The notes under the pieces were generated by a model. That model saw nothing but the letters and a program-made list of their open reading frames with translations, was not told the DNA's origin and ran no database searches. Shown one piece after another: positions 1 to 43,589 of a DNA stretch of 44,566 nucleotides. The stretch is from a virus. Position numbers and translations under genes: made by a program. The stretch is taken from positions 1 to 44,566 of the IMG/VR virus record IMGVR_UViG_3300017971_001825; one strand, given 5' to 3'. Each line of letters begins with the position of its first letter. Positions within the stretch are counted from its first letter, which is position 1.

Positions 1-143
1 CTAGTAGGGTCGACCTGTTGCCAATTAATATCCAATTGGAATCCATCTATTTGATTTATACCTATGGCACCACTAACACTTTGAACACCAATCATGAACT
101 TAGAGAAAATCCCCCCTCCTATGGTCCTTACCTTTACGTTCAT
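1..143 (-). CDS. Partial hypothetical protein, 3' end outside window
   Basis: The first 47 codons of a minus-strand gene run off the left edge of the window. The ATG overlaps the TGA stop of the methyltransferase gene in an ATGA arrangement, which is typical of translational coupling, so this is the next gene of the same operon. The visible part (begins MNVKVRTIGGGIFSK) is glycine- and isoleucine-rich and shows no motif I recognise. From its place at the distal end of a glycosyltransferase operon it may also act in glycan synthesis, but nothing in the residues shows this. Confidence 0.55.
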   Translation of the reverse strand, partial: MNVKVRTIGGGIFSKFMIGVQSVSGAIGINQIDGFQLDINWQQVDPT

Positions 144-1094: not shown

Positions 1095-1096
1095 AT

Positions 1097-1906: not shown

Positions 1907-2562
1907 TTTAGGAATTTATAGTTTACGTTAGAGTGTTGGATGTCAGAATAACCATCCAATTGCCAAGCTAGATGTGGTTTAAAACAATATACACCTAATG
2001 ACCTATGTAATTCAGCTAAAAAGTAATCTACAGCAACAGAAGGCGTGAACCTAGTGTCCCTATTATCTAATACCTTTTTAATGTTTTTCTCTAAATGAAG
2101 TATCATAATATCATAAACATTCTCACTAATACCACATGCGTGAATAGCGTAACTTTTGTTAAGTCTTACCACCCCATTATTTATGGGTCTCACACCACCA
2201 ATGTGGTTACCACCGAAAAATAATATATCCCAATTTGGTGGTACGTTATTAATTAGACTACTAAATTTCTCATTTAAATCATCGACAAATACTACATCAT
2301 CTTCTAATAGTAGTAATCTTTTTACCCCCTCTTCTTTAGCCTTTTTAATAGCATTAAGATGACTATAACATCCTGCTAACTCCGCGTTATATGTTTTCCC
2401 ATGAGGTAAATCTAACTCTGATTGTCCATCGGTAGCGGAGAATCTCTCCACTTCCAAACCTAATTTTTTGAATTGTGGTAAACAATTCTCTTCCCATCTA
2501 TCGGGTCTCCTGTCTAGGTTAATACAGTAAATTTTATCGAAATATTCATTTACACTTCCCAT
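1903..2562 (-). CDS. Glycosyltransferase family 25 (LPS-type)
   Basis: The 219-residue protein opens with FDKIYCINLDRRPDRW, the hallmark of family 25 (LPS galactosyltransferase-like, PF01755). An acceptor or donor loop LAGCYSHLNAIKKAKEEG and the metal-binding LLLLEDDVVF (E-D-D) follow in the middle third. Length and motif order match the family. Enzymes of this family add hexoses to lipooligosaccharide or to hydroxylysine. It sits between a GT2-like gene and GT11 with short overlaps on both sides, so it is part of one polycistronic message. Confidence 0.88.
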   Translation of the reverse strand: MGSVNEYFDKIYCINLDRRPDRWEENCLPQFKKLGLEVERFSATDGQSELDLPHGKTYNAELAGCYSHLNAIKKAKEEGVKRLLLLEDDVVFVDDLNEKFSSLINNVPPNWDILFFGGNHIGGVRPINNGVVRLNKSYAIHACGISENVYDIMILHLEKNIKKVLDNRDTRFTPSVAVDYFLAELHRSLGVYCFKPHLAWQLDGYSDIQHSNVNYKFLK

Positions 2563-3344
2563 GTGTTAAAAAGTTTATCTACTTTAACGATATCGTAAAA
2601 TTTATCAGGAGCTCCACCCATCAATCCTTTTTTGGGGTACTCCCACGACTCATAGTAGTTTACTAGTTTGTCGATATTTTTAAAGTTAGGTGATGCTGAC
2701 GAATTTTGTAGTTTTTTACGAATATCCTTACGTACATAACTCATATGATGCATTTCCACCTCTTCTCTGGTGAATATTTTGGTGTTTATTAAACCTGTGT
2801 TAGCGTAATTAACCCTTCTTGTTGGGTCTACTAGTACAGGGAATGGGGCTCCGATAACATATTCGATACCTTGACCCATTTTATGGAATAATGATACATA
2901 ATACTCTTCTTTTGGTTCTAACCTATGTTCCGAATCCTTGTAATATGTCACCATTTGACAAGCTGAAGTGTTGTAATCACCCTCTTCTATTGTTTTTTGA
3001 ACGTACTTCATTTGTTCGTCCGTATAGAACTCATCCGAATCCATAGCCATATGGTAATCACATCCAGCACCTTCTGAAAGTATTATACCAATATTTCTTT
3101 TTCTTATTTCGTTGTAGTGCCCACCCTTATCTACTTTAGGTCTGTATTCAAACAACTCATCTATTAAACCTTCTGATTTTAATCTTTCTAATAGTGGGAC
3201 CAACCCCTCAGAACAAGGGTGTCCGAAATTTGATGTGGTCTGATAAACGACTGATACGAAATCAACGTTATCTCTTATAGACTTTATGGAAGACTCTAAT
3301 AGTTCTTCACCATCAAATAAATTATATGATACTCCGTATTTCAT
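2550..3344 (-). CDS. GT2-like glycosyltransferase
   Basis: A 264-residue protein opening MKYGVSYNLFDGEELLESSIKSIR, which matches the first strand and helix of inverting GT-A enzymes that begin with a nucleotide-binding strand. A D-x-D-type motif MAMDSDEFY lies near residue 100, as in family 2-like enzymes that bind a divalent metal and the UDP/GDP sugar. A late MHHMSYVRKD stretch could supply acceptor-side residues. It overlaps the GT25 gene by 13 bases and follows the two-domain transferase gene after 2 bases. The donor and acceptor are not predictable from the sequence. Confidence 0.75.
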   Translation of the reverse strand: MKYGVSYNLFDGEELLESSIKSIRDNVDFVSVVYQTTSNFGHPCSEGLVPLLERLKSEGLIDELFEYRPKVDKGGHYNEIRKRNIGIILSEGAGCDYHMAMDSDEFYTDEQMKYVQKTIEEGDYNTSACQMVTYYKDSEHRLEPKEEYYVSLFHKMGQGIEYVIGAPFPVLVDPTRRVNYANTGLINTKIFTREEVEMHHMSYVRKDIRKKLQNSSASPNFKNIDKLVNYYESWEYPKKGLMGGAPDKFYDIVKVDKLFNTWEV

Positions 3345-3346
3345 TA

Positions 3347-4885
3347 TTACACCAATCTTTTCATTGTCTGCCCAATTAATAATTCTAAATCTTTTGCCGA
3401 AATGTTATCAAAATAATTGTGACATCTTTTACTTGTTATGATTAAAGGTATTAACCTTTTTGTATAATCTTCACCCTCTCTTCTAATCTTCTCAGGGTCA
3501 TTATTTCTTGTTTGACTTTCATAATGGTAACATACCGCATCAGAAACGAACACATTCTTAAGGTTTCTAGTTAAACAATCTATGTTAAGTTCAACATCTT
3601 CAAAACACTCTTGGTATCCCTGATTAAACCCACCAATCTTATTGAACATATCTTTTCTAATCATCATGAAAGCAGCGGTATTACCGAATACATTAGTGTT
3701 CCTAGGGTGGTACCCATAATAAGAACCTAATCCTTTGTGTGATACCCTAATTCTACGGTCCTGACCTATGAAGGCGACAATACCTGAATGCTGTATAGTT
3801 TTATTCTCGTAATACAATCTAGCACCAACAGTGCCAACACCACTTTTACTAGCCACTGAAGCCATTCTTGTTACAGCGTTGTTTATTAGTTCGATATCAT
3901 TATTACAGAATAATAATAATTCAACGTCATCATCTATATGATTCCATACTACATCATTATTGATTTGTGCGAAGTTATAGTAGTCATATTCAATTAACCT
4001 AATATCTCTAACACCATGTTTAGTGATTAGGGATTTAGTTTGTTCAAGTTCATCAGGTGTAGACCCAGTATCGGCAATATAAATGGTCATATTTTCGTAA
4101 CCATCTTTTTCAATGAGGGAATCAACACACTTAGTTAGTAAATGTAGATTACCTTTCGTGGGTATGATAACACCTACCTTTGGTGGTGTTTTAATGTTAA
4201 CCTCTTTTTCTGAATAGAATATTTCACTCTCTAAATTAATAGGTAGTTTGTCCTCGTATTTAGAGATGAACTGTTTTCTATTACTTTCCCATTCATCATT
4301 AGTCATACCGATAGACTTATGAGTGATTCTAATATCTGACATAACACCCACTTTAACATCGTTTAAATGGTTGTTAACACAAAAATCTATTTCATAGAAA
4401 TGGAATCCCTTAAAGTCCTCATCGAAATCAGATTTTAATCTACTCTTTTTAACAGCAAAGAATAATCCGTCAACAATCACGGATTCTAATACCTTATCAC
4501 TGAAGTTTGGACAATATATTGAGTCCCATGATTTACCTTCGTGACTATGTCTAACTTGACCTAACATTTTAGTGTTATCGTCCCACCATCTACCACTTTC
4601 TGATATATCGGTAGTTCCGGCAACGCCTAATATTCCGAAATCAGTAGTTTCGAAATGTTTTATTAATCTTTTTGCCCACTTCTTCGTATTGAATACAATA
4701 TCATCATGACAGAAAACAATAATATCATTTGATGCTTCTTTTAAACCTTTGTTATAAAACTCTGTTAACGGTTGTCCATGGTTTATATACTCGATAACCT
4801 CAACGTCCTTAAGACCTGAGGTTTTCTTAATGTGTTCTTGGTGACTAGGAAACTCTTCTCTAGTACAATATATTACCGTAATCAT
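3347..4885 (-). CDS. Two-domain GT2-family glycosyltransferase
   Basis: The 512-residue protein is a fusion of two GT-A modules. The N-terminal half (about 1-230) opens MITVIYCTREEFPSHQEH, carries IVFCHDDIVF as the D-x-D equivalent, and has an HFYEIDFC segment. The C-terminal half opens KVGVIIPTKGNLHLLTKCVD, has YIADTGSTPDE, LLFCNNDIEL and a late GFNQGYQECFEDVELNID with the ED-x-E acid pair of classical family 2. Such bimodular enzymes often build disaccharide repeats or carry one inactive domain. The gene overlaps the proteasome-like gene by 4 bases. Confidence 0.85.
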   Translation of the reverse strand: MITVIYCTREEFPSHQEHIKKTSGLKDVEVIEYINHGQPLTEFYNKGLKEASNDIIVFCHDDIVFNTKKWAKRLIKHFETTDFGILGVAGTTDISESGRWWDDNTKMLGQVRHSHEGKSWDSIYCPNFSDKVLESVIVDGLFFAVKKSRLKSDFDEDFKGFHFYEIDFCVNNHLNDVKVGVMSDIRITHKSIGMTNDEWESNRKQFISKYEDKLPINLESEIFYSEKEVNIKTPPKVGVIIPTKGNLHLLTKCVDSLIEKDGYENMTIYIADTGSTPDELEQTKSLITKHGVRDIRLIEYDYYNFAQINNDVVWNHIDDDVELLLFCNNDIELINNAVTRMASVASKSGVGTVGARLYYENKTIQHSGIVAFIGQDRRIRVSHKGLGSYYGYHPRNTNVFGNTAAFMMIRKDMFNKIGGFNQGYQECFEDVELNIDCLTRNLKNVFVSDAVCYHYESQTRNNDPEKIRREGEDYTKRLIPLIITSKRCHNYFDNISAKDLELLIGQTMKRLV

Positions 4886-5376
4886 TTCTTAACCTTAAAC
4901 ATATTAATAGGTTCTTCACAATATACTGATAAATGACACGCTGCTTTAATCGCATCCTTACAAGATTTCCCTAAATAAAGGGCTGACAACGCGAAATCCA
5001 TACCAGCACCTATAGCATCATAATCATGAACCTCCTTTACGTAATAACCGTTATTTAATGAGAATGCTTTTTTCTTAAAAACTATAATATAATCGTTTTG
5101 TAATTCTACATCACCTGTTTTAGATTTTAACCAATCATGGAACTCTGATATGAAATCTACCATAGCTTCACAATTAGCTGCCCTAGGTTTTCTAGTCTTA
5201 CAATACATCCTCAATAAAGCCCCTTCTTGAGCCATACCAACAGAACCAATAATCATTCCGTTAACCTTCTCAATCTTGGCTAGTTTATTTTTTTCTTGGG
5301 TCCACCCATAGGCTAGAATACTATCCGCACCTATAGTGATTTTTTTATCCGTTACTTTTACCGCTACTACACTCAT
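4882..5376 (-). CDS. Proteasome beta/HslV-like Ntn hydrolase
   Basis: The 164-residue protein has the layout of a proteasome beta or HslV subunit. It opens MSVVAVKVTDKKITIGADS, has KLAKIEKVNG next, and later AIGAGMDFALSALYLGKSCKDAIKAA, the usual helix after strand S7. If the initiator Met is removed, the chain starts with Ser1 and places Asp17 (in IGADS) and Lys33 (in LAKIEK) exactly where the catalytic Thr1/Asp17/Lys33 set of proteasome-fold peptidases lies. Ser instead of Thr as the N-terminal nucleophile is unusual for this fold but used by other Ntn hydrolases. No unfoldase partner (HslU-like) is visible. It sits between a transferase gene and the small gene next to dUTPase, with 1-4 base spacing. 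The fold call is good, the activity an inference. Confidence 0.75.
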   Translation of the reverse strand: MSVVAVKVTDKKITIGADSILAYGWTQEKNKLAKIEKVNGMIIGSVGMAQEGALLRMYCKTRKPRAANCEAMVDFISEFHDWLKSKTGDVELQNDYIIVFKKKAFSLNNGYYVKEVHDYDAIGAGMDFALSALYLGKSCKDAIKAACHLSVYCEEPINMFKVKK

Positions 5377-5377
5377 C

Positions 5378-5545
5378 CTAATTATAATATATTGGTTTGA
5401 TTGGGATGTTATTGATTTTAATTAACTGTCTTGGGCCCATTTTACCAAACGGTCTCCTATATACAGTTTTACCCTTATCAGGGCTCTCGTATACCCAAAC
5501 TACCTTCTTATCGTTATTTTTCACCTGTTGAACCGAATCCACCAT
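5378..5545 (-). CDS. Small hypothetical protein between dUTPase and Ntn hydrolase
   Basis: A protein of about 55 residues with a basic, beta-rich core (VVWVYESPDKGKTVYRRPFG) and no motif I recognise. The start is uncertain. The ATG at 5545 lies inside the 3' end of the dUTPase gene, giving a 32-base overlap. A GTG at 5524 would shorten the overlap to 11 bases and give a 48-residue chain. The stop lies one base before the next gene's ATG. Spacing and strand agree with a real operon member. Confidence 0.55.
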   Translation of the reverse strand: MVDSVQQVKNNDKKVVWVYESPDKGKTVYRRPFGKMGPRQLIKINNIPIKPIYYN

Positions 5546-6113
5546 CACCACGACTAGTCTCACCTAGTTCATTAACCTCTATTAGATTAGCGGTCTCAGA
5601 ACCAATTCTATGTGATATAACACCTTGTGCTATTCTATCACCCTTTTCCCAACTATACTCGTCGTTAGATAGGTTGACTAACAATACTTTAACCTCACCA
5701 CGATATCCTGTATCTACGGTTCCTGGTGTATTAAGTACTGTTATACCGTGTTTATATGCCATACCACTTCTAGGTCTAATCTGTAATTCACACCCATGTG
5801 GTAATTCAAAATATAAACCTGTTGGGACTAGTGTTCTTTCTAGTGGTTTTAGGGTACCACCTTCCATGGCTCTAAAATCGAAACCTGAATCACCTTCCTT
5901 AGCGTAAACAGGACTTTTAAAATCTGATTTATTTACGAATTTCACAGGTATCTTAACACTATGATTAGTGTCTTCACCCATATTTTGTACACCCTCAGCA
6001 AATGCGATTGCTTTAGATATTTCATCTTTAGTTTCTTGTGGTAATACATCTAATTGTTGTAAATCCCTCAATTCTTTAATGTAACCACCAATAACTTCTT
6101 TATTGTTATCCAT
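5514..6113 (-). CDS. dut: dUTP diphosphatase (dUTPase)
   Basis: All five motifs of trimeric dUTPases are present in order: DSGFDFRA (75-82), RPRSGMAYK (113-121), GTVDTGYRGEVKVLLVN (131-147), GDRIAQGV (158-165) and the C-terminal lid RGDGGFGSTG (188-197). The enzyme converts dUTP to dUMP and pyrophosphate, keeping uracil out of phage DNA and feeding dTMP synthesis. About 54 extra residues at the N-terminus (IKELRDLQQLDVLPQETKDE region) are predicted helical and are not part of the usual 140-150 residue core. The start overlaps the exonuclease stop by one base. Confidence 0.95.
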   Translation of the reverse strand: MDNNKEVIGGYIKELRDLQQLDVLPQETKDEISKAIAFAEGVQNMGEDTNHSVKIPVKFVNKSDFKSPVYAKEGDSGFDFRAMEGGTLKPLERTLVPTGLYFELPHGCELQIRPRSGMAYKHGITVLNTPGTVDTGYRGEVKVLLVNLSNDEYSWEKGDRIAQGVISHRIGSETANLIEVNELGETSRGDGGFGSTGEK

Positions 6114-6823
6114 TATTCTAATGAATTTAATTTCTGTGTTATATCAATCAATGCTTTCACATCTCTTTCACAATATTCTCCAATTAATTTGTGTTCACCC
6201 TTCCAATAGAATTCGTTAACACTATCACCCCTAACATCACCATTCTTAGGTGAATCAACACCCAACATAGTGGTAATTAAATCTAAAGATGATAAACCAT
6301 AACTACCAAAACTCCATACGTCTTTAGTGTCAACCAATTTTAGGTCCCATGGTTTAGTATCATGTGAAGGGAACATTTTTGGTGGCTTCAACCCATTAAT
6401 GAAGTATCTTTTACCTAGAAATGGTATGTCGAATTTTTTAATATTCTGACCACAAAGTGTGAAATCCATACTTTCTACTTTATCGAAAACTTTTCTAGTG
6501 TTGATAAGTATTGTTCTTTCGTCTTCACCACAATGAGATTCTAATTTAACTTCACCTTTATTAGTGACGAAACCTAATGACACACAACAAACCTTACCAA
6601 ACTCAGGGAATAATCCAGCTGTTTGTTTATATAATTCTTCTAGGTACTCATCCCCATCAGGGTTCCACCCGACTAATTTACTTTCATCAGTAACCCTTTT
6701 CTCGAATGTGTTTCTGTAACTATCCCATATTTTTCTCTCATCAGACGGCATGTCTTTAAGAGATTTATATTTTGCTACAGTCTCTACATCAAAATAGAGT
6801 AATTTCTCTAATTTTAAATCCAT
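6113..6823 (-). CDS. DEDD-family 3'-5' exonuclease (polymerase B-like)
   Basis: The 236-residue protein carries the RNase H-like exonuclease signature: LLYFDVET near residues 8-15 (Asp12 and Glu14 as metal ligands), LCGQNIKKFDIPFLGKRY in the middle (Exo II), and GEYCERDVKALIDI near the C-terminus (Exo III, Y-x-x-x-D). This resembles the stand-alone 'PolB-like 3'-5' exonuclease' family. It probably trims or proofreads DNA during phage replication. It overlaps both neighbours by a single base, which ties it to dUTPase and the GT4-like gene in one transcript. Confidence 0.85.
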   Translation of the reverse strand: MDLKLEKLLYFDVETVAKYKSLKDMPSDERKIWDSYRNTFEKRVTDESKLVGWNPDGDEYLEELYKQTAGLFPEFGKVCCVSLGFVTNKGEVKLESHCGEDERTILINTRKVFDKVESMDFTLCGQNIKKFDIPFLGKRYFINGLKPPKMFPSHDTKPWDLKLVDTKDVWSFGSYGLSSLDLITTMLGVDSPKNGDVRGDSVNEFYWKGEHKLIGEYCERDVKALIDITQKLNSLE

Positions 6824-8136
6824 TATGCGTTAGTTTCTTCTATTAATTCTTTTATTTCTGTTTGATTATCTTTAACGATAGTCTTGTAAAATTCCGCTCT
6901 AGTATGTGTAACTGTATCAATATGATACTTATCCTTCACTGTGTTGTATAAGTTCTCACTAAGTAGGTTAATCAATTCAGGATTGTTCTTCAACTTCTTC
7001 ATAGCCTTATACCATTCCTTATGGTTCTTTCTAGATTCAATCAGTACGGCGTTACCGTTTTCATTAATCTTACCACCATATTCGAAAATAGGTACACAGT
7101 CAATTTGGTATGGTCCGTAATCTTGTGCTATGATAGCCTTCTTATGGAACCCTGCTTCAATGACTTTCAACTGAGACTTACATTTGTTGAACATATTCTC
7201 AGTAATTGGTGCCATAGAAACGTCGAACATATTGTAGTTCGATGCGTATGTGGTAATCGGTTTAGTCCAAACCCTCTTATATAAACCATTAGAGAAATCG
7301 TATTCTTTATCTGAATCCCTATCATATCTTTTAAGATTCTTCAATAGTTCACCGTCTGTTAGTTTATAGTTGTCAGTAAAGAACTCCTCATAACGAACCC
7401 AAATACTTTCTTCAGGTCTAATCTTTCTAGTAGTAATCTCACCTGTCATAGGGTTTCTTTCATTAATATTACCCCTAAGGTCAAACCCACAAATAACCAT
7501 TTGTGAATCATCTTTAAATTCCCTCAAGAACCTAGTCACATTACCAGACATTAACTTTAAATCGTGGTAGTGAGAAGAACCACCTAACCAACCGAACCTA
7601 AGTCTATCACTTTCCTCTACATTAGATTGGAATTGTTTCTCAGACGGGTCAATAGCGTTAGGTAACACAATAACATTCTTATTGTGTTTACTAATCTCTT
7701 TAGCGTATATTGGTGTGGTTGTTGTTACGTAATCAGCTTTAGATAAATTTGACACCACCTTAAGAGGTAATTTATCGTTAACAATAGCATCATAAGCGGG
7801 GTGTTCTCTACTAGGCATCCAATAATCATCGATATCCATTATCGTGATGATACCTAACCCACGAAGTTTTTCGAATAGAGGGTCCACCTCTTCTAGATAT
7901 ACTTGTTGAATACTTCTATCTACAACCTTAGGTAGTGTTCTATGGAAATGTACTATTTGGAACTTTTTTAGATATTTGTCGTCGTCCCAATTAAATCCGT
8001 CTGTACCAGCTGTAACGATTTCAATATGAAAATCATCATTATACAATTCTTGTAGTTTCATGTGTGGTTCTACAGACCTAAATTTTGATACACCCGTCCT
8101 ATCAGATGGGAATACTAAAACATTAATTTTACTCAT
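6823..8136 (-). CDS. GT4-type glycosyltransferase
   Basis: The 437-residue protein has the two Rossmann-like halves of a GT-B enzyme. The N-terminal half begins INVLVFPSDRTGVSKFRS and includes the VHFHRTLPK strand. The linker has VTTTTPIYAKEISK and the strand NVIVLPNAIDP typical of GT4 enzymes. The C-terminal half has RFGWLGGSSHYHDLKLM, then DVSMAPITENMFNKCKSQLKVIEAG, the nucleotide-sugar-binding end with the E-x(7)-E-like segment degenerate. It is the first gene of the minus-strand operon. Upstream lies a short gap ending in a terminator, so its promoter should be within 8137-8206. Confidence 0.82.
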   Translation of the reverse strand: MSKINVLVFPSDRTGVSKFRSVEPHMKLQELYNDDFHIEIVTAGTDGFNWDDDKYLKKFQIVHFHRTLPKVVDRSIQQVYLEEVDPLFEKLRGLGIITIMDIDDYWMPSREHPAYDAIVNDKLPLKVVSNLSKADYVTTTTPIYAKEISKHNKNVIVLPNAIDPSEKQFQSNVEESDRLRFGWLGGSSHYHDLKLMSGNVTRFLREFKDDSQMVICGFDLRGNINERNPMTGEITTRKIRPEESIWVRYEEFFTDNYKLTDGELLKNLKRYDRDSDKEYDFSNGLYKRVWTKPITTYASNYNMFDVSMAPITENMFNKCKSQLKVIEAGFHKKAIIAQDYGPYQIDCVPIFEYGGKINENGNAVLIESRKNHKEWYKAMKKLKNNPELINLLSENLYNTVKDKYHIDTVTHTRAEFYKTIVKDNQTEIKELIEETNA

Positions 8137-9027: not shown

Positions 9028-9413
9028 TAAAACCTTGCTTGTTTATAAATTGTTATCATACTATCGTCTCCATTTTCTCTATATCTAGGAACCGATGGGT
9101 CTCTATCAGATATTGGTTGGAAGAAGACTTTGGGTGTTCTTACCCATCTACTGATTTTGTCCGCTCTAAAAGTTTTCCAAGCAGGTTGTTCAGTATCAGT
9201 AACACCTTCAATCTGAAATGCCCTAATAATAGGGTTTCCGGCTTTAGACTCACCATACACATATGGTTCAATCCATCTCCATCCTCTAGCCATAGTTTCA
9301 TCACCTTCATAGTAAATCCTTACTGTTTGGTGTTTCTCTATCGCAGATTCTATCTCAGACCTACTCGCTACCTCTAAAATAAGTTTATTAAGTAGAGAGT
9401 AAAGTTTTCCCAT
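9027..9413 (-). CDS. WYL-like domain protein with head-targeting-like N-terminus
   Basis: Residues about 20-95 follow the WYL/SH3-like pattern seen in bacterial regulators: IESAIEKHQTVRIYYEG, then WRWIEPYVYG, then NPIIRAFQIEG and WKTFRADKISRW. There is no helix-turn-helix, so it is not a complete WYL transcription factor. I chose the ATG at 9413, one base after the preceding stop; a GTG at 9455 would force a 41-base overlap. From this start the chain opens MGKLYSLLNKLILE-VAS, which resembles the (I/L)-x-E leader shared by other proteins in the window. It lies in a late transcript and is likely a virion or head-packaged protein. Confidence 0.6.
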   Translation of the reverse strand: MGKLYSLLNKLILEVASRSEIESAIEKHQTVRIYYEGDETMARGWRWIEPYVYGESKAGNPIIRAFQIEGVTDTEQPAWKTFRADKISRWVRTPKVFFQPISDRDPSVPRYRENGDDSMITIYKQARF

Positions 9414-10250: not shown

Positions 10251-10834
10251 TATGCTAATTTCTTTTTAAGTTCCTCTTTATATTCTCTAGGTACATCAAC
10301 CATGTTCATACCTAGTAGGTGATTAAGTATAATAGCCTTTTCTTCACCTGTTGCATCATTCTTTTCGATAATATCTTTAAGAGCTGATACTTTTCTAATT
10401 AAAATTGGATTAGTGTCTTTGATAGTTTCTAGGGCCGGAATACCATTCATTCTTACTTGGTTGTCCCTATACTTTTTAACGATATCGTCATCGAATTTCT
10501 TTTTGGTAAAGATATCTTCGATAACATTGGTCATTTTATTCTTCGCAGTTTCATCTAAATCACAAGACTCACACTTCTCGTCATCATCTTTTTTAAATCT
10601 AGATACATCTCCTGGTGGTAATTCTAATTCATCATCTTCGACTTCATCATCCTCACCAAAGAACCCACGATATAAAAATCTACTCATACCTTGACGTGAT
10701 GTTCTTACGAAATCATCTGTGGTATAATCAGAAGCGGCGATGGCGTCATCAGAACTGATAGCACCATCATCACCTTTAATTCTTTTACCATCACTGTCTA
10801 CTAATTCGTTAATTATCTTGCTTAAACCTATCAT
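10250..10834 (-). CDS. Hypothetical acidic protein, probable virion component
   Basis: A 194-residue protein opening MIGLSKIINE-LVDSDGKR, which fits the short helix plus I-x-E pattern shared by head-cargo candidates, though with Leu after Glu. The middle is highly acidic (FFGEDDEVEDDELELPPGD) with a CESC pair. The C-terminal third is helical (NPILIRKVSALKDIIEKND). It is the first gene behind a late-type box at 10851-10860 and heads the 10834-8237 transcript. No enzyme motif is seen. Confidence 0.65.
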   Translation of the reverse strand: MIGLSKIINELVDSDGKRIKGDDGAISSDDAIAASDYTTDDFVRTSRQGMSRFLYRGFFGEDDEVEDDELELPPGDVSRFKKDDDEKCESCDLDETAKNKMTNVIEDIFTKKKFDDDIVKKYRDNQVRMNGIPALETIKDTNPILIRKVSALKDIIEKNDATGEEKAIILNHLLGMNMVDVPREYKEELKKKLA

Positions 10835-14289: not shown

Positions 14290-14847
14290 TTAATAAATAT
14301 CAGGTTTATACCATCTTATTTTTATACCGTGTAAATTATTTTGATTAACCAACGATACACCCCAATCAGAACCGATATTGGGTCTTTTATTTGGTGATAG
14401 TATTAACAGGTTATCACAGTTTCTAGACAGTTGGTAAATTAGGTTCGGCAATTTACTTTGTTCGTATAAATGCATTGCATAACTACAAACTATTGTGGAG
14501 TATTTAACGTCTAGCCCACTTTTCATAATATCATCGAAACTAAGTGATTTACATGTGTTACCTGTTTCTCTAGAATATAAACCACAAGTATATGGGTCTA
14601 TACCAACTACGTTAGTGTATCCATGGTAATCTAAAATCTTTGTTATTTCACCACTTCCTGCAGCTAAATCTAGTGTTTTAGAAAAATCGATAGACCAATT
14701 ATCAATCACCCAATCCATAGCTAATTGTAGCTCAGTCTCATGAGGGTTATGGTACTCATCACCATATTTTTCATAATAACCTTCTACACCGTGTTTCTCG
14801 TATTCACCACGAATAGATTCTAATATAACTCTTCTTAACAGTCCCAT
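14290..14847 (-). CDS. Class I SAM methyltransferase with head-targeting-like leader
   Basis: The 185-residue protein has a Rossmann methyltransferase core: TLDLAAGSGEITKIL (motif I), NVVGIDPYTCGLY (acidic strand 2), YSTIVCSYAMHLYE (motif IV region) and LLILSPNKRP. The first 16 residues, MGLLRRVILE-SIRGEY, resemble the (I/L)-x-E leader of other proteins here, which would place it inside the head. Its gene overlaps the LamG fibre gene by 13 bases. Its last codons (D-I-Y-stop) are themselves the late-type box of the next gene. The substrate is unknown; methylation of host or phage DNA, RNA or protein are all possible. Confidence 0.75.
   Translation of the reverse strand: MGLLRRVILESIRGEYEKHGVEGYYEKYGDEYHNPHETELQLAMDWVIDNWSIDFSKTLDLAAGSGEITKILDYHGYTNVVGIDPYTCGLYSRETGNTCKSLSFDDIMKSGLDVKYSTIVCSYAMHLYEQSKLPNLIYQLSRNCDNLLILSPNKRPNIGSDWGVSLVNQNNLHGIKIRWYKPDIY
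14291..14301 (-). promoter_or_regulatory. Late-promoter-like box inside a stop codon region
   Basis: Minus-strand GATATTTATTA overlaps the stop of the methyltransferase gene and ends two bases before the ATG at 14288. If it is a promoter, the mRNA for the 129-residue protein would be nearly leaderless or use a start further inside. Confidence 0.5.
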
Positions 14848-21763: not shown

Positions 21764-22231
21764 ATGATGAGAAATCTTATAAAGAAAATACTAAGAGAAT
21801 CTGATTTTGATTGGATTGAAGCCACGCCCGAAGCACCAAATGTTGGTGGTCATCCTCAAGGTGTTGTTCATCTAAGAAGTCATGCTGAGATTGCTGAGTT
21901 CATAAAATTGTTAGAAGAATACAATGACGGATGGGAAGGCCCCTATCCCGATGGGTATCATGATTTCCATACGGCTTTTGACTATACCTTAGACCAATAT
22001 GAGGATGGTGAATTCAGTGAAGGGTGGATACCCACTTTATCAGCATCTTTCTTTGTCTATAAAGATAATCCTGATAGATTAGTTTCTGGTTATTGGGATT
22101 ATGACGTTTCGGAGGATAGTGTACGTGAATGGTTAACACATGGTGGTAGGGACAATGTCATAAACACAACCGATTGGAAAATCTATACTAATTTAGAAGA
22201 TGTTAAGAATCTATTCAAAGCAATTAACTAA
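21764..22231 (+). CDS. Hypothetical protein with capsid-targeting-like leader
   Basis: A 155-residue acidic protein of unknown family. It opens MMRNLIKKILRE-SDFDW, a basic amphipathic helix ending L-R-E before Ser, the pattern of T4 internal-head proteins cut by the prohead protease. The body is rich in Trp, Tyr, Asp and His (YNDGWEGPYPDGYHDFHTAFDY). The start may be the second ATG at 21767. Its 3' end overlaps the convergent helicase gene by 8 bases. I infer that it is packaged in the head, and do not know what it does. Confidence 0.65.
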   Translation: MMRNLIKKILRESDFDWIEATPEAPNVGGHPQGVVHLRSHAEIAEFIKLLEEYNDGWEGPYPDGYHDFHTAFDYTLDQYEDGEFSEGWIPTLSASFFVYKDNPDRLVSGYWDYDVSEDSVREWLTHGGRDNVINTTDWKIYTNLEDVKNLFKAIN

Positions 22232-36287: not shown

Positions 36288-36524
36288 ATGTCTACAATTA
36301 TTAAGAAAAAAGATTTGGACCTAGTTGTTGAAAACACTCTTAAGGAAGCTGGTTTGGTTACCGAGACTGTTGAAAAAAAGACTATCGAGGACGTTGAAAA
36401 AGACGTTGTTAATGAGTCTGTAAGTAACTTGGTTAACGAAATGAATAAAGATAATACAATCACTGAAGGTCTATCTAAAGAGAAAGAAAACTTCATGAGA
36501 TTCATAAACTACAACAATTACTAA
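36288..36524 (+). CDS. Small acidic protein, possible prohead core component
   Basis: A 78-residue helical, acidic protein. It opens MSTIIKKKDLDLVVENTLKE-AGL, with L-K-E before Ala as in T4 prohead-protease sites, and has a second (I-T-E before Gly) at about residue 60. Small acidic proteins with several such sites, such as T4 gp67, are cut to peptides during head maturation. That comparison is a guess based on size, charge and site. It lies between the sheath and the repeat protein, with the promoter at 36264. Confidence 0.6.
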   Translation: MSTIIKKKDLDLVVENTLKEAGLVTETVEKKTIEDVEKDVVNESVSNLVNEMNKDNTITEGLSKEKENFMRFINYNNY

Positions 36525-36536
36525 AAACCAATATAA

Positions 36537-37184
36537 ATGGCTAAGAAAAGATATAAAATTAGAAAAGAACAACTTGAGAGAGTTGTTGAATCATTTGTAA
36601 TGGAGTCTGCAGCTCCTGAAGCTAAGAAACACGTTAAGGGTGGTCTTGGAGATAAAATGGTAGACAAAAGAAGTAACACTAAAGACGCTCCTGAAAAGGA
36701 TTGGGGTCTTAATGATGAACCTTCTCACGCACCTGAAGCTAAGAAACACATCAAGAACAAGATGGATGGTAAGATGGTAGAAAAGAGAAGTAACTCTAAA
36801 TCAGCTACTACAACTGAAAAGAAGAAAATGAAACACGCTCCTGAGGCTAAGAAACATGTTAAAGGAACTGTATCAGAATCAACTGAACTTACAGAAGAAG
36901 AATTAAACGAGTTCTTCGGTGGTAGAAAGAGAAGAAAAAAGGCTCTAGAAGACGATTTCAAACTTAAAGCTAGATTGTGGAGAAAGAAAGGTGTTATCGG
37001 AGCAATGACTAGAACTGATTTCCTAGAATTCATGGCAGCAGCTGAAGAAGATGATTACGAAGGAAAAGTCGGATTAGATAAAGAAAATGGTAAACTTGTT
37101 TACAGAAACGCTGACGATGTTAATTGGGCTGGATTAGGTCTTAACAGAAGTGGTTCTTTCGGTGGAACAGGTACAGGTGGATAA
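36537..37184 (+). CDS. Lysine-rich repeat protein, probable head-internal
   Basis: A 215-residue basic protein. Its N-terminus MAKKRYKIRKEQLERVVESFVME-SAAPE resembles the leaders of its neighbours (here V-M-E before Ser). Three copies of APEAKKHVKG lie at residues 26-35, 65-74 and 101-110. Two are followed by a KMV(D/E)KRSN(T/S)K segment. A third site T-E-L-T-E lies at about 116-120. The C-terminal half is charged, then ends with a glycine-rich tail. Basic repeats with DNA-compatible charge suggest packaging with the genome. It ends just before the terminator at 37208. Confidence 0.65.
   Translation: MAKKRYKIRKEQLERVVESFVMESAAPEAKKHVKGGLGDKMVDKRSNTKDAPEKDWGLNDEPSHAPEAKKHIKNKMDGKMVEKRSNSKSATTTEKKKMKHAPEAKKHVKGTVSESTELTEEELNEFFGGRKRRKKALEDDFKLKARLWRKKGVIGAMTRTDFLEFMAAAEEDDYEGKVGLDKENGKLVYRNADDVNWAGLGLNRSGSFGGTGTGG
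36612..36863 (+). repeat. Three-copy coding repeat APEAKKHVKG
   Basis: The product has three copies of APEAKK-H-(V/I)-K spaced 39 and 36 residues apart, two with a downstream KMV(D/E)KRSN(T/S)K. The DNA repeats are diverged, so this is an old duplication within the gene. Confidence 0.7.
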
Positions 37185-37207
37185 TCACCTACAAAGATAC
37201 AAGAAGA

Positions 37208-37233
37208 CCTCCCATAGTGTGGGAGGTTTTTTT
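37208..37233 (+). terminator. Rho-independent terminator
   Basis: CCTCCCA / TGGGAGG arms of 7 bp with a 5-base loop, then seven T, ending the 36288-37184 transcript. It lies between that gene and the convergent membrane-protein gene. Confidence 0.88.
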
Positions 37234-37238
37234 ATGCT

Positions 37239-37607
37239 TTAATATTCGATTTTATCAACGTATTTCTTAACCAAGTACTCATTACTAGTATCAATGATAC
37301 CACTTTCCTTGTAGAATAATACAGACATCTTAAATGAGATTAATGCCGTCTTCTTATCATTACCTTTCCTGTTTAAAACGAAAAATAATACTATAGACGG
37401 AATAAAGAAGAATAAAGAGATAAACCCACCGAAGACTAATGTGGCAAGTGTAGCAAGAACGGTTGTGATAATGAAATGTCCAAGGATGTTTTTAAACGAC
37501 TTGTTAGACTTATTAATATTATCAACACGTTCACACAATTCCATTTGTAACAACTCAATTTCTGAATAGTTGTTAATGTCTTCGTCTGTTAAATCTTTTA
37601 TTCTCAT
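37239..37607 (-). CDS. Small two-helix membrane protein
   Basis: A 122-residue protein (from the ATG at 37607; a TTG-initiated form would add 10 residues). The N-terminal 55 residues are soluble and helical (IELLQMELCERVDNINKSNK). Two transmembrane helices follow (FIITTVLATLATLVFGGFI, LFFFIPSIVLFFVLN) and then a charged C-terminus. Function unknown; a holin-type or membrane-anchor role is possible. It runs opposite to the late genes and has no late box. Confidence 0.65.
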   Translation of the reverse strand: MRIKDLTDEDINNYSEIELLQMELCERVDNINKSNKSFKNILGHFIITTVLATLATLVFGGFISLFFFIPSIVLFFVLNRKGNDKKTALISFKMSVLFYKESGIIDTSNEYLVKKYVDKIEY

Positions 37608-37645
37608 ATATACTTTATTTTTAATGGTCAATACCAATATATGAA

Positions 37646-37655
37646 ATATTTATTA
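37646..37655 (+). promoter_or_regulatory. Late-promoter-like box
   Basis: ATATTTATTA within AAATATTTATTAATAAA, 14 bases before the ATG at 37670. It probably starts the transcript of the 37670-41873 cluster. Confidence 0.6.
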
Positions 37656-37669
37656 ATAAACAAAAAAAT

Positions 37670-37978
37670 ATGAAAACTTTTAAAAAATTCTTCATGTGGT
37701 TAGCACTAACTAATTTAGGAAGGATAATCGGTTCCTTTCTATTAGGTGTGTCATTTTTTGCTCTTTCCAATAAGACGTATGAAATGGGTAAAGATACCCT
37801 GTCAAACGTGTTTTTATACACTGCAATAGTATTCGGGACTATCTTAATGGGTCACTTTTTAGTTATGATGGCTTACGCATGGGTTATTAATCCATTACGT
37901 GATTATTGTAGTTATAAGGGTAAAGGTAAGAAATTTTGTAAAATCTTCTGTAAGAAATGTAACAATGAGGAGGTTTAA
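37670..37978 (+). CDS. Small membrane protein
   Basis: A 102-residue protein with a basic N-terminus MKTFKKFFMWLALTNLGRIIG and two hydrophobic helices (IIGSFLLGVSFFALS and VFLYTAIVFGTILMGHFLVMMAYAWVI). A cysteine-rich basic tail (CSYKGKGKKFCKIFCKKC) would lie at the cytoplasmic side, and its four cysteines could bind metal. It overlaps the next gene by 14 bases. Two-helix size is compatible with a holin, but nothing proves it. Confidence 0.65.
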   Translation: MKTFKKFFMWLALTNLGRIIGSFLLGVSFFALSNKTYEMGKDTLSNVFLYTAIVFGTILMGHFLVMMAYAWVINPLRDYCSYKGKGKKFCKIFCKKCNNEEV

Positions 37979-38486
37979 GGTTCACACAATTAAAGAAGGT
38001 AAACATAGGGCTAATAAACCTAGATTGAGACTTTATTGGAATAAAAAGAGGATGGCATATGACGTTCTCTTTACTAACTCTTGTTTGTATGAAACAAAAG
38101 ACCCAAAGAACCAAAAAGATATTAATAAATTGTTCGGTTTTTCCTTTGGGTTACATCATAAAAACTCGGTTAGATTTGGTTGGAGAGATAATGGTGTTGG
38201 TAAGATAGATTTAATGGCGTACATTTATCGTAACGGAAAGAGGATTAATGAGTGGGATGAAAGTATTTATATAGAGACTGTTGATGTTAACACACCGTAT
38301 AGAATGGAAATAAGTGTCGGTGGTGGTAACTTTATGTTTACCGTACTCAGAGACAGTAAGATTGTAGGAGCAACAATAATCAAACATGGGAAACTATTCC
38401 CTATAGGTTATCATCTAAACCCGTATTTTGGTGGGGATGAAAAGGCCCCACATGATATGGATATAGAATTGTACAGAATATTATGA
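37965..38486 (+). CDS. Beta-sandwich (lectin-like) protein with short leader
   Basis: A 173-residue protein. I chose the ATG at 37965, which overlaps the previous gene by 14 bases; an upstream in-frame start at 37899 would lie deep in that gene. The N-terminus MRRFKVHTIKE-GKH has an I-K-E-G site like its neighbours' leaders. The body is a beta-sandwich (RLRLYWNKKRMAYDVLF, RFGWRDNGVGKIDLMAYIY, MEISVGGGNFMFTVL) ending in a GYHLNPYFGGDEKAPHD segment common to uncharacterised Bacteroidota proteins. Function unknown; a glycan-binding fold is possible. Confidence 0.65.
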   Translation: MRRFKVHTIKEGKHRANKPRLRLYWNKKRMAYDVLFTNSCLYETKDPKNQKDINKLFGFSFGLHHKNSVRFGWRDNGVGKIDLMAYIYRNGKRINEWDESIYIETVDVNTPYRMEISVGGGNFMFTVLRDSKIVGATIIKHGKLFPIGYHLNPYFGGDEKAPHDMDIELYRIL

Positions 38487-39262
38487 GAAAAGATAGATTA
38501 ACTAATAAGGATATTAATAGACTCGTTAGACGAATTATTAAAGAAAATAATGAAGAAGACGAGGAATGGTCTAATTGGGGTGATGAAAGTGGTGAATGGA
38601 GTTGGTTTGAGGACCAATTCGGTTTCAACCAAGAAAATTCTTATAAAGAGAAAACCCAAGAGGAACTTGAGATTCTTAGGTATAAAAACGTTAAGAGTGG
38701 TGATGTTTTAATAATACACCCTGATGATAGAACAACGGATTTCCTTAAACCTTGTTACGAAGGTATGGACGCTACTATTCTAACACAACATGATGAGTTT
38801 TATAATCTAGCTGAAACCATGAAGAGACATAATAGGATTATTATGATGGGTCACGGTTCACCAGGTGGTTTGTTCATGCCAAGAATAGAGGGTATAGAAC
38901 AGGATGAAAATGGTGAGTTATTCGAGTATGTAGATTACTCAATCAATGACTCATACTCTCCAATCTTAAGAGAGAAACGTACAGTATGTGTTTGGTGTAA
39001 CGCTGATAAGTTTGTTGTACCACAAGATTTACATGGTTTTTACACAGGTATGGTTATATCTGAACTTTGTGAGGCTGATTATTGTGACGTTAGAGGGTGT
39101 GACCCAAGACAGTTAGAAGAATCGAATACCACATTTACTATGGGATTAAAAGAAGCTTTAAAAGTGGATGGACCAGAGTCTGTAAGGATTTTCAAAGAGA
39201 TTTACAATAACCCAAAAAACCCAATCATGGTTTATAACAATAGACGACTTTATTTTAGATAA
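38483..39262 (+). CDS. Caspase/CHAT-like (clan CD) protein with leader
   Basis: A 259-residue protein. Its N-terminus MRKDRLTNKDINRLVRRIIKE-NNE is a basic helix ending in I-K-E. A tryptophan-rich acidic linker follows. From about residue 70 the fold has alternating strands, IIMMGHGSPGGLF (His124) and RTVCVWCNADKF (Cys169 and Cys172). The G-H-G, then a strand ending in Cys, is the His-Cys dyad arrangement of clan CD peptidases such as CHAT, caspases and gingipain. Substrate and activity are unknown. It overlaps the previous stop by 4 bases and ends three bases before the HAD gene. A head-packaged protease is the inference. Confidence 0.6.
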   Translation: MRKDRLTNKDINRLVRRIIKENNEEDEEWSNWGDESGEWSWFEDQFGFNQENSYKEKTQEELEILRYKNVKSGDVLIIHPDDRTTDFLKPCYEGMDATILTQHDEFYNLAETMKRHNRIIMMGHGSPGGLFMPRIEGIEQDENGELFEYVDYSINDSYSPILREKRTVCVWCNADKFVVPQDLHGFYTGMVISELCEADYCDVRGCDPRQLEESNTTFTMGLKEALKVDGPESVRIFKEIYNNPKNPIMVYNNRRLYFR

Positions 39263-39264
39263 AC

Positions 39265-40134
39265 ATGAAAAAGAAATTTATATTAACAGAAGGTCAAATA
39301 AAAAGACTAAAGAGAGATTTACTTGAGATGAAGATGAGGTCTTACATCTTTGACTGGGATGACAACATATTGTATATGCCTACAACAATTAAAATGGATA
39401 AGAAAGAGGGTGACCAATGGGTACCTATCGATGTTCCAACAGATGAGTTCGCTCATGTAAGGACTAATCCTGAATATAGACTTAGAGATAATGACGCTGG
39501 TAAGGCTTTTATCGACTTTAGAAAAACAGATTCGTTTTTAAGGGATGCGGAAGAAGCTATACACCAAGGAAGTTTTGCTCCGAGTGCTGATAAATTTAAA
39601 GAAGCATTAATATACGGAAATCGTTTTGGTATTAACACCGCAAGGGGACATAAACCTGAGGCATTAAAACAAGGTGTTAGACTGTATATAAACATGGTAT
39701 TCTCTGATGAGGAAAAAGAGGAAATGGTAAAGAATATCAGAGAACAACTACACTTAACGAAAGGATTAAACGATGAACAAGTTATTGACTTATATTTGGA
39801 TGAGATGGGAGAGTACTATCCCGTGTCTAGCGAAGAATTCGGTGAAAGATTTGGTTTGGAGACCTCAGGTGGAGCAGCAAATCCAGAACACGCAAAACAA
39901 GTCGCAATCGAACACTTCGTCAAAAAAATCTTAAGAAACGTAAAGAAATTAGTGGAAAGTGGTAAATACACAAAAATGTCAGTTGGTTTCTCAGATGATG
40001 ATATTAGAAATGTTAAAGCTGTAGAGTCTTTCATTGAACACCAATTAACTAAGATGTACCCTGAAATCCATTTTGTGGTTTATGACACTTCAGAAAAGGG
40101 TTATAACAAAATGTGGGTTGAGAGGACTGATTAA
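39265..40134 (+). CDS. HAD-like phosphatase/nucleotidase with leader
   Basis: The 289-residue protein opens MKKKFILTE-GQIKRLKRDLLE and then SYIFDWDDNILYMPT (Asp30-x-Asp32, HAD motif I with Asp33-Asn34). GINTARGHKPEAL (Thr125) fits motif II, and SVGFSDDDIRNVKAVE (Asp244-246) fits motif IV. T4 PseT-like 3'-phosphatase domains have this arrangement, so a phosphatase on nucleotides or nucleic-acid ends is possible. The leader's L-T-E-G is a fit to the packaging pattern. It overlaps the next start by one base. Confidence 0.72.
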   Translation: MKKKFILTEGQIKRLKRDLLEMKMRSYIFDWDDNILYMPTTIKMDKKEGDQWVPIDVPTDEFAHVRTNPEYRLRDNDAGKAFIDFRKTDSFLRDAEEAIHQGSFAPSADKFKEALIYGNRFGINTARGHKPEALKQGVRLYINMVFSDEEKEEMVKNIREQLHLTKGLNDEQVIDLYLDEMGEYYPVSSEEFGERFGLETSGGAANPEHAKQVAIEHFVKKILRNVKKLVESGKYTKMSVGFSDDDIRNVKAVESFIEHQLTKMYPEIHFVVYDTSEKGYNKMWVERTD

Positions 40135-41873
40135 TGACAAAAGTTTACGATATATTTTCAAAGTTATTAACTGAAGCTCGTTGGAAGGATGTAGCTGAAA
40201 GATATCGTGCAAAGTGGCCTGAGAAGGCTAGACACTACAAAATATGGGATTTCGAGAACTATGATGATTTGGTTAATCATTTTATGGAGAACGACCCATC
40301 AGGTAGTAACAAATATCTACAATTCTATCTTAGTACTTTATTAGATACAAAAACTATTGTTAACCCGTTACAGATTACCCATTGGGTAAAGAAATTCCAT
40401 GAGTATAGTGAAAAGGGTTATATACAAAATAAAGACATCAACTCAAGAGAATATAAAGACCACGATAGGTTTTTCAATGTAATATACCAAGCTGAACGTA
40501 AGGAAGAGGCTAAACAAAGAGAAAAAGAATTACAGAGACAAATGAGAGCTGAAGGTGACCACGTCTTTGAGGATGATAGATGGAAAGTTGTTGTACCTAA
40601 AACCCATAGGGCATCATGTCATTATGGTCATGGTACTAAATGGTGTACCACAATGAAAAACAAAGATAGTTACTTCAAAACCTATACTGGTCAAGGTGTG
40701 TTATTCTACATATTAGATAAAACTTCACGACAAACCAACGTGATGTATAAATTCGCTATGTTATGGAAATGGGGTACCAATAGAGATGGTACTTTTAGTG
40801 AAAAACCTATAACAACTGCGAGTGGTTTTGATTCACATGATTCATCTGTTAATATGGGTCACGTATTACCTTTCATGCCTAAAGATATGATTGAGGCAAT
40901 AACTAATTACTATAAGAAAACTGTTAGAGATAAGAACCCTAAAGCAAGGGTGATTGAACACCCTGATAAGTTTTTGAAAACTTTATCTAACTACGGTTAT
41001 TATGAAGTGTTTTGGGAAAACTTAGAGAATGATTTATCAGAGGGTGGTAAATTACATCATTTAATAGCACCATTCGGTGGTAAATTCACAATGGAACACA
41101 CAACAGATGATTCCATTAGTTTTTGGGTTTCTGAGGAAATGGGTGATGATGTTGGTTTAGGTGAGATGGTATACCAATTCGACCTACCAAGTTCGGGTAC
41201 AGGTAATTTAGTGGGGTTTGATATCTATGAGTATGTTGTTGGCGGTCCTGTAGATGAGGGAGACTTTTTATCAACTTATCACGATAATCTAACATTAGAA
41301 TCATTCTTCATTAGTAGATTCATGAATAAGTACGGTTACAGTAATGATGACCTACAATTTATTATAGACCCAACTACTGATGAGGGTTATGATAAATCTG
41401 ACACAATTATAAGGGATTTACGTGATTACGCATACGCTTATTCAGTTTCTAGGTTTATGCCTATAATATCAAAAAGATTATGGAACGATGAGTCGGTACC
41501 AAAGAAAGATAATATTATTTATTGGTCACCTGTTAATTCATCATCAAAAATTAAATTAAAATACCCACCACAAAGAGGTAGTGTTACTGAAGCGTTTATG
41601 AAAATGGTTAAGGAAAAACCAGGAACCACACTTGAAGAGTTCTATCAACAACATTTTGGTAAGGGGAGTTATCCTGCTGAGGATAAAATCTGGATGCTCC
41701 AGTTACTTAAGGATTCGGGTATTGTTAGAGTTGAAAAGGGTCCTAGAGGGGTATTTAAATACTACCTTGGGCCAAACTACGAGGCTTGGACACAAGGTAG
41801 ATTAAAAAGGTATGAAGGATATCACACAAATTCTTATGATTTAATTGATACCCTTACTAAGAATCGTCATTAA
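40134..41873 (+). CDS. Large protein with GTKWC motif and leader
   Basis: The 579-residue protein opens MTKVYDIFSKLLTE-ARWKD, where L-T-E before Ala is a strong match to T4 head-processing sites. Residues 150-200 have HRASCHYGHGTKWCTTMKNKD (Cys162, His163, His166, Cys171) and then LFYILDKT. This GT-x-W-C block followed by a strand with aromatic residues recurs in many phage proteins, of which I know no proven function. The C-terminal 100 residues have a winged-helix-like region (LQLLKDSGIVRVEKGPRGVFKYYLG). It is convergent with clpP with a 4-base overlap. Confidence 0.65.
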   Translation: MTKVYDIFSKLLTEARWKDVAERYRAKWPEKARHYKIWDFENYDDLVNHFMENDPSGSNKYLQFYLSTLLDTKTIVNPLQITHWVKKFHEYSEKGYIQNKDINSREYKDHDRFFNVIYQAERKEEAKQREKELQRQMRAEGDHVFEDDRWKVVVPKTHRASCHYGHGTKWCTTMKNKDSYFKTYTGQGVLFYILDKTSRQTNVMYKFAMLWKWGTNRDGTFSEKPITTASGFDSHDSSVNMGHVLPFMPKDMIEAITNYYKKTVRDKNPKARVIEHPDKFLKTLSNYGYYEVFWENLENDLSEGGKLHHLIAPFGGKFTMEHTTDDSISFWVSEEMGDDVGLGEMVYQFDLPSSGTGNLVGFDIYEYVVGGPVDEGDFLSTYHDNLTLESFFISRFMNKYGYSNDDLQFIIDPTTDEGYDKSDTIIRDLRDYAYAYSVSRFMPIISKRLWNDESVPKKDNIIYWSPVNSSSKIKLKYPPQRGSVTEAFMKMVKEKPGTTLEEFYQQHFGKGSYPAEDKIWMLQLLKDSGIVRVEKGPRGVFKYYLGPNYEAWTQGRLKRYEGYHTNSYDLIDTLTKNRH

Positions 41874-42616
41874 AGATTTACCCCGATAACTTCATCAATG
41901 ATACCATAGTCGAGTGCTTCCTTAGCTGATAACCACAAGTCACGACTAGCATCTTCTTTAACTTGTGCCGCGTCTTTACCACAATATTCACCTAATAATT
42001 CGAATAAAAGGTCGTTAACTTTTTGCCACTCTTGCCATTGGATTTCTGCATCTTGGATGTTACCAACAGCTCCACCTGATGATTGGTGTAACATGGTTCT
42101 TGAGAATCTTAAGGAACTTCTCATTCCTTTGGTTCCTGCTCCTAGAAGAACAGAACCCATTGAGGCTGCCATCCCTGTGTTGATGGTTTCAATATTAACC
42201 CCGTTAGCCTCTCTAACGTAATCCATTACGTCAACCATAGATAATCCAGCTTTAACCGAACCACCTGGTGAGTCAATATGTAATCTGATTGTTTTTTTCG
42301 GGTCTTCTTGTGCCAAATATAATAATTGGGCTTGAAGGATGATTGCCATCCTGTCGTCTACAGGTCCAGCACACCAAATAATCCTGTCCATCATCAATCT
42401 ATCGAACACGGACATCATCGCGATGTTCATCTTTCTTTCTTCAATAATTGTTGGGGTTACAGAATTTGTGATTGGTTGTCCGTCAAGTCCTAAAATGGCT
42501 GACGCGTTCATTTTCTGATACGAGTGCTGATTTTCTGTATGTTTCTTAACATCATCTAGTAAGGTTGTACTTACACCATGATTGCTAACTAGATACTTTT
42601 CAAAATCGTTTTTCAT
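41870..42616 (-). CDS. clpP: ClpP-like serine protease
   Basis: The 248-residue protein has the complete ClpP triad: nucleophile in GMAASMGS (Ser152), His177 in TMLHQSSGG and Asp226 in ASRDLWLSAKEA. HIDSPGGSVKAGL supplies the oxyanion hole. It is longer at the N-terminus (about 65 residues) than host ClpP. It might supply a host-like protease, replace or redirect ClpXP, or act in head maturation. It runs opposite the late genes and has no late box, so early or middle expression is more likely. Confidence 0.9.
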   Translation of the reverse strand: MKNDFEKYLVSNHGVSTTLLDDVKKHTENQHSYQKMNASAILGLDGQPITNSVTPTIIEERKMNIAMMSVFDRLMMDRIIWCAGPVDDRMAIILQAQLLYLAQEDPKKTIRLHIDSPGGSVKAGLSMVDVMDYVREANGVNIETINTGMAASMGSVLLGAGTKGMRSSLRFSRTMLHQSSGGAVGNIQDAEIQWQEWQKVNDLLFELLGEYCGKDAAQVKEDASRDLWLSAKEALDYGIIDEVIGVNL

Positions 42617-43333: not shown

Positions 43334-43450
43334 ATGAAAAAAGTATTCCTACTGATTATATTATTGTCAATTCTTTCATCATGTGGTAATAGAAGACATA
43401 AATGTCCTGCTTACGGTGATAATGGTCAAACTGTTGAAAACGTTGCGTAA
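43334..43450 (+). CDS. Small lipoprotein
   Basis: A 38-residue ORF reading MKKVFLLIILLSILSSC-GNRR, a classic signal peptide with lipobox L-S-S-C (Cys17), then a short cysteine-containing mature part of about 22 residues (HKCPAYGDNGQTVENVA). It would be lipidated and anchored in the membrane; the size and type are like phage lysis or superinfection-exclusion lipoproteins, or Rz1. A promoter box and a terminator in front give it its own transcript. Confidence 0.75.
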   Translation: MKKVFLLIILLSILSSCGNRRHKCPAYGDNGQTVENVA

Positions 43451-43589
43451 CTTAATTAAAAACATATTATTAAAAGAAGGTCGTGTTGAAGAGGCTGGAC
43501 TTTGGTATTGGGGTGGAAATAAAAAGAACTCGTCTTTCCGAGTCGTCACTATTTTCCTCTTTTTTGAATTGTGGCTTAAAATAGTTTAA
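43422..43589 (+). CDS. Candidate small protein with packaging-type leader
   Basis: A 55-residue ORF opening MVKLLKTLRNLIKNILLKE-GRVEEA, which is very like the leader of the 21764 product (MRNLIKKILRE-S). It overlaps the lipoprotein's 3' end by 29 bases in another frame. Its 3' end runs over a hairpin that may be the terminator of the opposing gene, and its C-terminus becomes hydrophobic (VVTIFLFFELWLKIV). Either it is a real short gene with a poorly constrained end or a degraded copy of a cargo gene. Confidence 0.4.
   Translation: MVKLLKTLRNLIKNILLKEGRVEEAGLWYWGGNKKNSSFRVVTIFLFFELWLKIV
43521..43543 (-). terminator. Possible terminator of the M20-peptidase gene
   Basis: On the minus strand, ACTCG / CGAGT arms with a 6-base loop are followed by a TCTTTTTATTT run, 62 bases after the peptidase stop. 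The stem is short. Confidence 0.4.

Follow-up and report, generated by a model that had tools for sequence, protein, structure and literature searches.

The locus analyzed here raises the question of why a series of proteins with unrelated bodies should begin with a similar N-terminal stretch. It lies on a 44,566-base IMG/VR fragment (the window) of a myovirus, in which genes for the tail sheath, the tail tube and a neck protein were detected. A preceding sequence-only reading had proposed that about ten of its proteins carry a basic and hydrophobic leader ending in [IL]-x-Glu, reminiscent of the capsid-targeting sequences of the T4 internal proteins, and travel as cargo in the phage head. The tail sheath places the window in a large family, the biggest contigs of which are G001 (318 kb), G002 (380 kb), G003 (130 kb) and G004 (171 kb), and gene calling was performed on the window and these four contigs. 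The leaders proposed for the window are the following (a slash marks the predicted cut):

21764 to 21799, plus strand: leader MMRNLIKKILRE/, then SDFDWIEATPE; 155-aa protein in which leader and D-F-x-W motif are both present
36288 to 36332, plus strand: probable leader, site VVE/N; 78-aa protein whose orthologs keep LIE/S there
36537 to 36605, plus strand: leader ending ERVVESFVME/; 215-aa basic repeat protein, Met-Glu/[AS] kept in most orthologs
37965 to 37997, plus strand: proposed leader, unsupported (score 1.2); 173-aa protein
38483 to 38545, plus strand: leader ending NRLVRRIIKE/NNEE (score 18.7); 259-aa protein
39265 to 39327, plus strand: leader ending IKRLKRDLLE/; 289-aa HAD-like protein with a DWDDN motif
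40134 to 40175, plus strand: leader MTKVYDIFSKLLTE/ARW; 579-aa protein of the GTKWC[TV] family with a C-terminal winged-helix-like part
43422 to 43478, plus strand: good-looking leader ending LIKNILLKE/GRVEE; 55-aa ORF
14818 to 14847, minus strand: leader MGLLRRVILE/S (score 12.8); methyltransferase
9372 to 9413, minus strand: leader MGKLYSLLNKLILE/V; WYL-like protein, Glu14 kept in 5/5 orthologs
10805 to 10834, minus strand: weak proposed leader MIGLSKIINE/L (score 1.1); 194-aa protein

The leader of the protein at 21764 reaches a score of 27.1, among the highest obtained for leaders of the window and its relatives, and recurs on dozens of unrelated IMG/VR ORFs among the matches listed. Comparison of orthologs reveals that leaders are exchanged while the Glu is retained. 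The G002 ortholog of the 38483 protein is 78% identical overall and diverges in the N-terminal 55 residues, yet Glu21-Asn-Asn-Glu is unchanged. Among the 19 sequences of the HAD-like 39265 family, the Glu is 94% conserved (18/19) and the neighbouring leader residues 5–10%, with three orthologs bearing an unrelated leader; paralogs of the 40134 protein similarly retain LxE/[GSAN]R behind differing leaders. For the 36288 protein the profile described below favours LKE/A, five residues further on, while its orthologs point to VVE/N and LIE/S instead. No relatives of the 37965 protein were found. In the 10834 protein the Glu is conserved in orthologs, but it is followed by Leu-Val within the conserved body, and the leader is very short. 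The 43422 ORF is probably a broken copy or remnant of the 40134 family, as what follows its site is similar to GRxED, with which that family starts. Hence, the initial list of members stands for 21764, 36537, 38483, 39265, 40134, 14847 and 9413, all well supported by score or orthologs, and probably for 36288, whereas 37965 and 10834 lack support and 43422 is a fragment. The leaders of 9413, 10834 and 36537 had been described as fitting less well; this applies to 10834, while the other two are well supported by their orthologs.

The leaders form N-terminal extensions beyond the proteins' own domains, as the HAD and WYL bodies begin just past the Glu. The earlier assignment of a methyltransferase is borne out by a match to PHROG 19153 (tRNA methyltransferase, 7e-26), and since this match begins at residue 12, the leader appears to be an added extension. 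The HAD phosphatase assignment is based on the motif, and the WYL-like assignment on a match of 1.3e-3, below the curated cut-off; both are tentative. For the 38483 protein, neither profile nor structure supported a clan CD protease, and its predicted structure was discarded (pLDDT 42). Neither this protein nor that at 40134 has sequence relatives with a solved structure, and the predicted structure of the latter gave no PDB match at E < 0.001.

To quantify the leaders, a 12-position profile was trained solely on ten window leaders, with thresholds taken from internal 40-residue windows of each genome. At a false-positive rate of 1%, it flagged 33 N-termini in G001 (3.2 expected), 36 in G002 (3.4 expected), 9 in G003 (1.3 expected) and, in the more distant relative G004, which has few leaders, 5 (1.4 expected). 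Retraining on G001 and G003 gave a profile that flagged 46/344 N-termini in the held-out G002. This profile, trained on two relatives and not on the window, flagged 8/42 window N-termini at the same rate, where 0.4 would be expected; at least one of the eight is false, as the site in the 22224 protein lies at residue 36. None of these flags falls within the ten-gene block at 140–8136 of the window, which encodes glycosyltransferases, a dUTPase and an exonuclease; this comes close to the comparison with an early operon that the sequence-only reading had called for. By a crude leader pattern, N-termini score at 2–5 times the internal rate. Clustering of the tagged bodies gave 41 clusters for G001 and 39 for G002, and a DNA pattern encoding M[KR][ND]LI[KR][KR]IL[KR]E yielded, among the IMG/VR matches listed, 100 ORFs in at least 45 clusters, some in tandem arrays. 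A tblastn search of named phages with a 24-aa leader, a short query, gave no match. The sharing of a leader by unrelated proteins is thus confirmed, at a larger scale than first described: the figure of about ten is too low genome-wide, as each of the large relatives has about 40.

When 105 leader proteins, otherwise mostly unalike, were aligned, the sole near-invariant column was Glu11, just before the predicted cut. Since the profile requires Glu, this P1 column is not independent evidence, which comes instead from the HAD orthologs and from the gp23 sites described below. P3 is Leu, Ile or Val in 99% of the leaders, and P7 (I/L/V/F) and P4 (I/L/V) are hydrophobic in more than 90%. Mutagenesis of T4 IPIII has assigned targeting to residues 4 and 7 and processing to residues 8 and 10 (PMC9026906). 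These residues correspond to P7, P4, P3 and P1, so that the same positions are conserved in the leaders. The window profile, applied to 59 T4 proteins, ranked gp24 second and the scaffold gp22 third, both gp21 substrates; the T4 internal proteins rank in the middle only, because they have no basic face. P1′ is often Glu in the leaders, a preference that, to our knowledge, has not been described for T4 gp21. The S-x-E or A-x-E motif at P3–P1, as in phiKZ and SPN3US, was not found, P3 being Leu or Ile.

According to the sequence-only reading, it would be decisive to look for a gp21-like protease and to see whether capsid and scaffold proteins contain I/L-x-E sites. Both were found in the relatives. 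A T4-type prohead protease gp21 (S77) is encoded in 13/13 related or leader-bearing contigs with intact gp23, namely in G001 to G004 and in exactly 9 of 17 further leader contigs, those with intact gp23. The other eight have no detectable S77 gene and no intact gp23 either and are probably fragments. In the window itself (44.6 kb), neither a gp21 nor a gp23 gene was detected. Among cultured phages, Flavobacterium phage immuto (MW353175) possesses gp21 and gp23 together with several leaders. The relatives' gp23 carries L-[IL]-[NST]-E/[ATS] at the position homologous to FLTE/A of T4, and ALLE/A is present in most of their gp22-like scaffolds, which open with a start related to leader class KLNENDIEKLVKKIIKE.

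On the minus strand of L202 (422–1045), the sequence behind a leader resembles part of gp23 (LEYWRVSNASPNSDEYEMGI); the contigs to which L152, L161 and L175 belong (G018, G022 and G025) contain gp23 fragments in separate pieces. In L340 (G023, 1015–3805), several genes with a KLNENDIExLVKKIIKE leader follow one another between gp21 and the scaffold gene.

Downstream of the cut, the leader proteins often display an acidic D-F-x-W motif, which is a new feature at the sequence level. D-[FWY]-x-W occurs within 20 residues past the cut in 22/105 leader proteins versus 6/852 other N-termini, and [ILVMF]xE lies within 10 residues upstream of 44/66 IMG/VR D-F-D-W-V matches versus 19% of random windows. 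One D-F-D-W DNA pattern search returned a single locus only. The motif may be read by the protease or may mark the start of a common small fold. Long ORFs of the relatives carry repeated [IVL]-x-E/S..DFDW junctions between mostly unrelated domains, with the same [IL]xE site and no basic helix. Fourteen proteins of G001 and G002 have at least two junctions, the largest being 1,577 aa long, and the independent contig L304 has five in a single ORF; a leader is absent at the start of some junction proteins. The pieces listed are in many cases 77–130 aa long, and some stretches between detected junctions extend over several hundred residues. The same domain can occur both solo behind a leader and inside a polyprotein, with homology from the [ILVM]xE site onward, as in the proteins at 330726 and 331738 of G002 (45% over 345 aa) and at 53409 of G001 and 116643 of G002 (43% over 254 aa). 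Over all proteins, [ILVM]xE was not enriched at homology boundaries (83/377 vs 22.7% random); many of the top boundaries there resemble inteins or terminase, helicase and tail proteins, and the boundary test is informative within leader or junction proteins only. In G004 (L116–L124), homology breaks with HN-type motifs, intein-like, were observed in proteins matching the relatives' terminase, DNA polymerase, ClpB-like and SNF2-like proteins. We lean towards the view that the polyproteins are head-packaged chains of unrelated domains, often of 80–130 aa, that would be cut in the prohead into proteins starting with D-F-x-W for delivery to the host. The open-access papers searched gave no earlier account of either the leader or head polyproteins.

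An indirect link to virions is provided by the 40134 protein, the N-terminal part of which distantly matches EST35_0205 of phage PA5oct (tblastn E 5e-3). The record of that protein lists it as a structural protein with the note ESI-MS/MS, and its start, MKLFEVFTLYE, resembles a T4-type sequence. A comparison of the predicted 40134 structure with viral models likewise returned a PA5oct structural protein among its matches. Most of the tagged proteins lack a match to any functionally characterized family. Among the named matches are superoxide dismutase (L201), a tRNA nucleotidyltransferase fusion (L099), GP88 (L171), glutaredoxin, lysozyme and the tRNA methyltransferase of the window; weaker ones are an Acb1-like 2H phosphoesterase, a PvuRts1I-like nuclease and DHH. 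The injected anti-host kit envisaged by the sequence-only reading would fit some of the relatives' cargo (Acb1-like, PvuRts1I-like, superoxide dismutase), these matches being few and some of them weak.

A shared leader, a conserved Glu, a protease with matching gp23 sites in relatives and an exchange of domains at junctions are thus evident from the sequences. We consider it very probable that the leaders act as T4-type capsid-targeting sequences, used on a very large scale by about 40 unrelated proteins per large genome, a reading supported by the S77 protease and the gp23 sites and by the match of P7, P4, P3 and P1 to the T4 mutagenesis (PMC9026906). The basic amphipathic leader helix would bind to the growing prohead core, with the hydrophobic residues at P7 and P4 conferring targeting, and the gp21-type protease would cut after [IL]-x-Glu to leave the mature protein free inside the head. 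Polyproteins, often with one leader at their start, would be cut at their internal junctions by the same enzyme, and some of the cargo would probably be ejected with the DNA, like the T4 internal proteins and Alt.

Three other explanations have to be weighed against this. The tagged proteins might be components of the prohead core or scaffold only, which would be cut after entering the prohead and then for the most part expelled, without ever reaching the host. Such a role would agree with the related start of the gp22-like scaffolds and with the clustering of leader class KLNENDIEKLVKKIIKE in the interval from gp21 to the scaffold gene, close to where T4 has gp67/gp68. However, many bodies are enzyme-like (superoxide dismutase, tRNA nucleotidyltransferase, methyltransferase), their genes are spread over the genome and the PA5oct homolog stays in the virion, and we regard this explanation as unlikely. 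Less plausible again, and in our view quite improbable, is an amphipathic helix addressing a membrane or an intracellular phage compartment, next to which the Glu would be incidental. The leader is indeed basic and helix-like, a helix being predicted in both models, themselves of low-to-medium confidence, yet the Glu is the most conserved residue, sits at the boundary to the body and recurs with its [IL]xE site in gp23 and at the helix-free junctions.

That the leader is merely a by-product of AT-rich N-termini, or reflects a single gene family that was duplicated recently, is hardly credible. The skewed codon use of the exact-leader core (ATA 91%, TTA 89%) could be taken in favour of this view and indicates that the tag DNA was probably copied between genes. 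Since lysine-rich N-termini are typical of AT-rich genomes, we tested AT-rich control phages (Staphylococcus phage K, crAss001 and Bacillus phage G, 50 kb each), of which 0/175 N-termini reached score 9 with the window profile versus 33/336 in G001 and 36/368 in G002; the roughly 40 body clusters per large contig equally speak against such an origin.

The proposed capsid-targeting system shares with that of T4 (IPI–III and Alt, cut by gp21) the short N-terminal propeptide with hydrophobic P7 and P4, [IL] at P3 and Glu at P1, the S77 protease, the same type of gp23 site and the diverse, unrelated bodies (PMC9026906, PMC3012670). It differs in the basic helix, in D-F-x-W past the cut, in polyproteins with internal sites and in number, with about 40 tagged proteins per genome compared to a handful in T4. 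In belonging to giant phages and comprising many head proteins, it resembles the inner-body and ejection proteins of phiKZ and SPN3US, in which a relative of gp21 cuts several head proteins behind Glu (PMC10052503, PMC5694885). Like T4 IPI* and other injected anti-defence proteins, which are delivered with the DNA (PMC3012670), the cargo consists of small proteins of many kinds that share nothing but a targeting tag; it differs in that its anti-defence role is putative, the Acb1-like and PvuRts1I-like matches being single and partly weak. If correct, the leader would provide a rule for predicting, with nothing but the genome, which uncharacterized proteins of giant phages are virion-borne. In each genome, dozens of genes without annotation would become candidates that can be tested for a part in early host takeover or counter-defence. 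The findings also point to polyproteins as a possible load of a phage head.

A ClpP/head-maturation-protease-like gene lies at 41870–42616 on the minus strand of the window, with the tagged block on one side and the tail tube gene on the other. A shared late promoter was looked for and was not evident. The regions upstream of 100 leader genes, from IMG/VR loci among the matches listed, show A at −3 and no clear Shine-Dalgarno sequence, which would fit Bacteroidota hosts.
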